This document shows positions 1,154 to 2,253 of a DNA stretch of 64,000 nt, piece after piece. Below the pieces are notes generated by a model that saw nothing but the letters and a program-made list of their open reading frames with translations, had not been told where the DNA came from and did no database searches. The position numbers and the translations under genes were made by a program. The DNA comes from Phycisphaeraceae bacterium. Lineage in GTDB: Bacteria; Planctomycetota; Phycisphaerae; Phycisphaerales; UBA1924. The number at the start of each line of letters is the position of its first letter. Position 1 is the first letter of the stretch. The stretch lies in assembly GCA_007693965.1 (NCBI GenBank), contig RECQ01000060.1:1-64000 (forward strand), in the 5' to 3' direction.

Positions 1154-1876
1154 TCAGTTGCGGGATTCGGCGTGCTCGGAGGGCTCTTCAGTCGGCTCCG
1201 GGGGCGCGGGCTTCTGGGCCTGCGGCTTCTTCCCGTCGTCGCCGGCGGGTGGTATCTGCTGATCGGCCTTGGCGTCTTCGGCGACGCCCTTCTCCTTCTC
1301 CGCCTTGCGCTTGATCGCCTCAATCTTGGGCCGATCAGGAGCGAGGATGAGCGTCATGCGCCGGCCCATCTGCTTGGGCGGGGTTTCGACCTTGGAGACA
1401 TCGCCGAGGCTGTCAATGATCGCGCGGAGCCGGTCCATGCCCAGGTCGCGGTGCATCATCTCGCGGCCGCGGAACTGCTGGACGAGCTGCACCTTGTGGC
1501 CGTCGATGAGGAAGCGCCGGGCCTGATCAACACGGATCTGCACATCGTGCGGATCGATCTTGATGGAGCGTCCGAGGCGGACTTCCTTCATTTCCGCCTG
1601 CTTCGAGGCGGCGCGGCTCTTCTGGTCCTTCTTGGACTGCTCGTACTTGAACTTGCCGTAGTCCATGATCTTGCACACGGGCGGACTCGCTTCCGGCGAG
1701 ATCTCGACGAGATCAAGGCCGGCGTCGATGGCCATGCGCAGGGCTTCGGATGTGTCGACCACGCCGCGCTGTTCGTTGTTCTCGTCGATCAGGCGGATGG
1801 GCGATATGCGGATCAGGTGGTTGATGCGGGTGCGTCGCACCGGTCCGGCTTCCCGGAAATAGCGTCGTCTGGCGAT
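1154..1876 (-). CDS. infC: Translation initiation factor IF-3, apparent AUC start
   Basis: IF-3 binds the 30S subunit, blocks premature 50S joining and proofreads the start codon. The N domain is clear (INHLIRISPIRLIDENNEQ, MDYGKFKYEQ), as is the C domain (VRLGRSIKIDPHDVQIRVDQ, LVQQFRGREM). A charged Lys/Glu/Pro tail of about 45 residues follows the usual end. The first ATG/GTG-type start is GTG at 1840, but an ideal Shine-Dalgarno AAGGAGT lies 36 bp further upstream, six bases before ATC at 1874-1876. That codon opens the same frame and adds IARRRYFREAGP, matching the basic RYFR-type leader of other IF-3 proteins. A non-AUG start is the known basis of IF-3 autoregulation in E. coli (AUU). 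The rpmI-rplT genes that usually follow are absent. Confidence 0.9.
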   Translation of the reverse strand: MARRRYFREAGPVRRTRINHLIRISPIRLIDENNEQRGVVDTSEALRMAIDAGLDLVEISPEASPPVCKIMDYGKFKYEQSKKDQKSRAASKQAEMKEVRLGRSIKIDPHDVQIRVDQARRFLIDGHKVQLVQQFRGREMMHRDLGMDRLRAIIDSLGDVSKVETPPKQMGRRMTLILAPDRPKIEAIKRKAEKEKGVAEDAKADQQIPPAGDDGKKPQAQKPAPPEPTEEPSEHAESRN

Positions 1877-1882
1877 GAGTGG

Positions 1883-1889
1883 ACTCCTT
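1883..1889 (-). promoter_or_regulatory. Shine-Dalgarno of infC placing the start at AUC
   Basis: AAGGAGT on the minus strand is followed by six bases (CCACTC) and then ATC. No ATG, GTG or TTG lies at the right distance, and the next GTG is 42 bases beyond the site. The site therefore decides the start of infC. Confidence 0.75.
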
Positions 1890-2253
1890 ATGAAAATGAA
1901 ACGGGCGGCCGCGTCGCCGATGTGGCGGCGCAGTGATGACCTCGACGGCGAAGAAGCGTCGAGACGAAGTGCATATCGGTCGTCGAGCGGGGCCGGATCA
2001 TGGCAGCGACCGACCGCAGCGGTCGCGGTCGAACGTGCTGTGGCGCCATCCTGCGTCGTTCACGCGGGTGAAGCTCCGGGCTGAAGAGCGCCCGAAGCGC
2101 TCTCCGTGGGTGATCCGGCAGTGGGCGAACGTCGCTCACGCTCACAGGAGGCTACCCTGCGAACATGGGGGGAGCAAGAGAGAAACGCCCGATTTCCGTG
2201 CGGGGAACCCCGCATTCGCCCCCACAGACCGCACGGGATGCAGGAGCAGACGC

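Follow-up and report, generated by a model that had tools for sequence, protein, structure and literature searches.

The infC locus and its start codon

The window, a stretch of 64,000 nucleotides from a Phycisphaeraceae bacterium, carries infC, the gene for translation initiation factor IF-3 (IF3), on its minus strand (positions 1154 to 1876; 240 residues if read from an ATC codon). The gene product is an IF-3 orthologue according to the equivalog model TIGR00168 (E 1.1e-55, 188 bits compared to a cut-off of 60), and both Pfam domains, PF05198 and PF00707, were matched as well. A single copy of infC is present in the assembly (3.48 Mb, 97.7% complete). The gene downstream of infC encodes a metallophosphoesterase, and an infC-rpmI-rplT operon is not formed. 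rplT was located on another contig (contig C70 of G000, 14000-14320), so that the E. coli-like gene order infC-rpmI-rplT is absent. On the opposite strand, a DinB-superfamily gene (2257-2697, plus strand) lies between thrS and infC. A thrS homologue is found near infC in several relatives, in one of them (L031) about 315 nt upstream; coupling of infC to thrS in the window was considered and rejected, because the opposite-strand DinB gene separates the two.

The infC frame is open from TGA 2062-2060 through the end of the gene, and the GTG at 1840-1838 is the sole ATG, GTG or TTG in the open frame ahead of the IF3 N-domain. The initial annotation had placed the start further upstream, at ATC 1876-1874, six bases behind a Shine-Dalgarno (SD) sequence AAGGAGT, and its coordinates, codon and spacing all proved correct on the minus strand: AAGGAGT occupies positions 1883 to 1889 and is followed by the 6-nt spacer CCACTC (1882-1877), so that the minus-strand letters read ...CATAAGGAGTCCACTC-ATC-GCC-AGA-CGA-CGC-TAT-TTC.... 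A start at this ATC adds 12 codons, IARRRYFREAGP, 36 bp ahead of the GTG. The SD match is complete at the ATC (6/6, scored against the usual anti-SD, on which the term perfect rests, as the 16S gene is absent from the assembly), whereas none was found at GTG 1840, as had also been claimed. The codon thus has the attributes of a non-AUG start, namely an ATH triplet with a well-spaced SD that is kept in relatives and no better conventional start. Two further in-frame triplets, ATA 1891 and ATT 1897, were rejected as starts, since they lie within or upstream of the SD and have none of their own. SD use in the window is low in general, with a match of at least 5 bases (spacing 1 to 17) in 16 of 40 long ORFs, and the infC site stands out.

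Conservation of the start site in Phycisphaerales

The initial annotation had pointed to an alignment of related genomes as a means to find a conserved non-AUG codon at this position. We compared two sets of loci. The first comprised 67 distinct Phycisphaerales loci, of which 66 were classified (L124 was unassignable, and about a dozen sites were assigned by eye), while the second added 75 loci of the family to which the window belongs, with the start assigned by rule only. Such a codon was indeed found in both: the start was ATC in 55 of the 66 loci, next to ATA in 4, ATT in 4 and ATG in 3, and AUC in 67 of the 75 further genomes, next to AUU in 7 and AUA in 1. An SD match of at least 5 bases preceded 55 of the 63 non-AUG infC sites, compared to 41 of 846 internal isoleucine codons. 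When the best of nine codons was searched for an ATH triplet with an SD match of at least 5, one was obtained in frame in 55/66 loci, in the other two frames in 0/66 and 3/66, and in 30 of 990 internal windows. Conventional starts are frequently missing altogether: 39/66 loci have none from the upstream stop to the infC start site, and 22/66 have none all the way to the IF3 core. In addition, ATA accounts for 4 of the 63 non-AUG sites but for just 3 of 846 internal isoleucine codons, an excess that fits start-codon choice rather than internal isoleucine.

The added codons themselves are under constraint. Entropy by codon position was 1.33/1.03/1.54 in the added codons, compared to 1.59/1.57/1.62 in the 36 bases upstream, which indicates that the extension is coding and corroborates the earlier reading of the 12 codons as a real IF-3 N terminus. 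At the position that corresponds to GTG 1840, 15 genomes have GTG, 15 have GTC and the others carry various codons. Relatives with ATG at this place, which had been named as the case against the proposal, were looked for and never met; AUG occurs only in the region of the proposed start. Given the conserved ATH codon with its SD, the share of ATA, the coding constraint downstream but not upstream of the site and the variability at the GTG position, we conclude that infC almost certainly begins at AUC 1876. A start at GTG 1840, which gene callers would plausibly choose, as the initial annotation remarked, has in its favor that the codon is conventional and retains the whole IF3_N domain. However, this GTG lacks an SD, is unconserved (GTC or other codons in most relatives) and is preceded by 12 codons under coding constraint and by the conserved ATH with SD, so that we regard it as very improbable. 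Placing the start at AUC would correct how an essential gene is annotated throughout the order, and the known non-AUG infC genes would gain a deep-branching clade. In other planctomycetes (L148, L150, L168, L169, L173), a strong SD precedes an ACG that may be the infC start, as in AGAAGGAGACTCGACC-ACG.

Two small open reading frames in the infC leader

Upstream of infC, two small ORFs, which the initial annotation had not noticed, follow each other on the minus strand. uORF1 (1998 to 2063, 21 codons) runs from GTG 2063-2061 to TGA 2000-1998, and a GGAG at 2074 to 2077, separated by a 10-nt spacer, is its presumed SD. uORF2 (1888 to 2001, 37 codons) runs from ATG 2001-1999 to TAA 1890-1888. The stop of uORF1 overlaps the start of uORF2 in an ATGA, which is part of a CATGA at 1998 to 2002, and the stop of uORF2 overlaps the infC SD (TAAGGAG). 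In a k-mer test on infC upstream regions, CATGA was found in 39/65 compared to 12.2 expected and was clustered at -140 to -100. Its ATG opens a short ORF with the stop at the infC ribosome site, while the TGA of the ATGA ends another short ORF, often begun at ATG or GTG behind GGAG.

We expressed this arrangement as a fixed rule, in which the full chain is an SD-led uORF1 with its stop in the ATGA plus a uORF2 ending at the infC ribosome site, and compared the counts to Markov shuffles preserving the last 20 nt and to the upstream regions of 565 other long ORFs. In the discovery set, uORF2 was present in 36/65 regions (shuffles 4.7, maximum 12; other genes 45/565) and the full chain in 19/65 (shuffles 0.2, maximum 2; other genes 1/565). 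The unchanged rule gave uORF2 in 39/74 regions of the second set (shuffles 5.4, maximum 12) and the full chain in 12/74 (shuffles 0.41, maximum 2); the two sets are not perfectly separate, as at least one second-set locus (L257) has a uORF2 identical to that of L031 in the first set. Over all genomes, uORF2 was counted in 78/147 (shuffle mean 10, maximum 17, about 8-fold) and the full chain in 33/147 (shuffles 0.65, maximum 4, about 50-fold). After clustering at 90% IF3 identity (n=113), uORF2 was retained in 64 and the full chain in 25 clusters. Relatedness was controlled roughly, and many of the genomes are metagenome assemblies. The enrichment concerns ATGA alone, with the overlap forms GTGA, TTGA, CTGA and TRATG at shuffle level. 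With the infC start approximated, uORF2 and the full chain were found in 10/68 and 2/68 loci outside the order but within the phylum, and in 7/77 and 0/77 loci from other bacteria, among which actinobacterial loci are numerous. By the rule, uORF2 is absent in 69/147 genomes, which reflects either a strict rule or frequent loss or replacement of the leader.

The placing of both ORFs is conserved, whereas the peptides of uORF2 are not. uORF1 mostly has 19-24 codons. uORF2 has a median length of 32 codons and a median start at -114, and its stop lies mostly between -28 and -1; an SD of its own was found at its start in 1/78 cases. In the related loci L303, L308 and L316, uORF2 is fixed at 38 codons including the stop, while ~60% of the bases differ and codon-position bias is absent. 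The uORF1 peptide appears partly similar within one genus. A conserved peptide or codon run, as expected of an amino-acid sensing leader peptide (attenuator), was not found among the uORF2 peptides. The arrangement instead has what translational coupling calls for, a stop-start overlap (ATGA) or a stop close enough to the following start (that of uORF2 near the infC SD), and such coupling leaves a pattern in which the positions of starts and stops are conserved but the peptide is not. A longer upstream peptide was considered too (an 85-codon ORF from GTG 2145 in the uORF2 frame) and dismissed, since no homologous peptide was found in relatives.

Further upstream, TAGCCT at 2149 to 2154 (minus strand) is a candidate -10 promoter element of the class GKTANNCT, a putative promoter based on the comparison of relatives. 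The motif was found in 49/146 upstream regions compared to 4.6 in shuffles, with its positions concentrated at -280 to -200, ahead of uORF1. A scan with the sigma-70 consensus returned no match. Just upstream of the uORF1 GGAG, the window also contains a hairpin, GAGCGC-TTCG-GGCGCTC (2103-2083, minus strand), and in some relatives, too, hairpins lie ahead of the motif.

In 11 genomes from three genera, an ATG lies near the usual start place of infC (L021, L111, L112, L220, L221, L228 and L233-L237). The IF3 tree places them in a single group nested within the ATC lineages, with a fork that is not fully supported (94/91). Their SD lies ~11-13 nt from the ATG in 8 genomes and close to it in 1, compared to the usual distance of 6-7 nt, and the remaining 2 have a bare GGAG without a 5-base match. 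The stronger AUG codon could be balanced by a weaker ribosome site, which is no more than a lead, as a single evolutionary event underlies it. uORF2 is still present in 5/11 of these genomes, which indicates that the leader does not depend strictly on AUC. The switched subclade represents a natural test of the purpose of the AUC codon.

Interpretation and comparison with known systems

The genomes compared show directly that infC has an AUC start, that this start is conserved and that both small ORFs are kept in place. What they probably reflect, in our view, is an AUC-start infC that is fed through two tiny ORFs by termination-reinitiation and is doubly sensitive to IF3. From the arrangement we infer that the uORFs are translated, that their coupling to infC is positive and that the signal is IF3. 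Ribosomes would load at uORF1 through its own GGAG, stop at the TGA of the ATGA and resume at the ATG in the same overlap, the start of uORF2, an ORF without an SD of its own; termination of uORF2 on the infC SD would then allow a restart at the AUC, where the strong SD may compensate for the weak codon. In E. coli, IF3 inhibits non-canonical start codons (PMC2268962, PMC5472188), and an excess of IF3 markedly lowers re-initiation (PMC2268962). If both hold here, infC would be sensitive to IF3 twice over. Rising IF3 would lower its own synthesis by rejecting the non-AUG start, as it does in E. coli, where infC starts at AUU. More tentatively, the tandem-uORF leader might serve as an IF3 meter, in which serial re-initiation ending at AUC multiplies both inhibitions and yields a steep feedback on infC.

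Autoregulation of infC by IF3 in Phycisphaerales would presuppose a discriminating factor. The FRGRE and DYGKF motifs are retained, and some residues are unlike those of E. coli; at E. coli IF3-C position R112, for instance, the alignment has D, and T. thermophilus has G. The replaced residues include basic ones of E. coli IF3-C that are important for 30S binding and discrimination. These replacements weigh against the favored reading, as do the genomes that lack uORF2 and the AUG genomes that keep it. Furthermore, the infC SD permits de novo initiation without coupling, and translated uORFs could instead block access to the infC ribosome site and act as repressors.

The leader can be explained in other ways. 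We think it unlikely that the case is an ordinary one, in which the AUC start and IF3 autoregulation work as in E. coli or Streptomyces and the upstream ORFs are idle. Non-AUG infC starts are widespread (PMC5472188, PMC5559785, PMC13009471), and AUC, AUA and AUU with an SD were common among the infC loci from other bacteria that we examined; nevertheless, idle ORFs would not explain an ATGA uORF class about 8-fold and a full chain about 50-fold over shuffles that were repeated in the second set. Repression by the uORFs, with a ribosome ending uORF2 covering the infC ribosome site and the AUC adding further weakness, appears less probable still. It would agree with the uORF2 stops, which commonly fall at or near the SD (-28 to -1), but it has no need for the ATGA overlap of uORF1 with uORF2, and the strong infC SD suits the capture of terminating ribosomes. 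Finally, it is improbable that GGAG, CATGA and the stop codons close to the SD form part of a structured RNA or of a binding site for a protein instead of marking translated ORFs. The E. coli infC-rpmI-rplT operon is under the control of a leader RNA structure, and hairpins flank the motifs in some of our genomes. On the other hand, Rfam returned no match for the leader, and hence no L20-type or other known leader RNA, folding of the infC start region was no better than in shuffles (z 0.62), and the enrichment is confined to ATGA elements whose reading frames lead to a stop at infC on one side and to an SD-led start on the upstream side. We favor coupled re-initiation. If the leader is translated, it would be the first case known to us of a re-initiation blocker made from a re-initiation-dependent mRNA, and it would link the control of IF3 to the part that this factor plays in recycling and re-initiation.

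Start codons of this kind are well documented. infC begins at ATT in E. coli and at ATC in Streptomyces, is often misannotated and is autoregulated (PMC5472188), and AUU is also the start in B. subtilis (PMC1805508). Peptides support ATT starts upstream of the annotated ones in Xanthomonas (PMC5559785) and Yersinia (PMC3091656), and ribosome profiling an AUA start in S. aureus (PMC13009471). These infC genes resemble ours in a start upstream of that of gene callers, experimentally supported there, and differ in codon and clade. The proposal of the initial annotation that a planctomycete infC starts at AUC thus stands, extended to order-wide conservation, while the codon different from that of E. 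coli, to which it pointed, is not new, given the ATC of Streptomyces (PMC5472188). The AUC start is a new clade of a documented kind, not new in kind. With E. coli infC, the gene of the window shares a non-AUG start, a good SD and a proposed control through IF3 discrimination; it differs in having AUC instead of AUU, two leader ORFs before infC and no rpmI-rplT after it. Streptomyces has the same AUC codon (PMC5472188) but belongs to another phylum, the N-terminal extension is longer here, and the full chain was found in 0/77 loci of other bacteria. No report of uORFs before infC or of a Phycisphaerales infC was found in the literature searched, which covered few subscription journals. The overlap of uORF1 with uORF2, the latter without an SD, resembles known termination-reinitiation coupling at ATGA overlaps (PMC6728339, PMC2268962). 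In contrast to those cases, both upstream ORFs are tiny here, their peptides are unconserved, and the gene they lead to encodes a factor that inhibits re-initiation. Overall, the two-uORF leader may be a more unusual feature of this locus than its AUC start.
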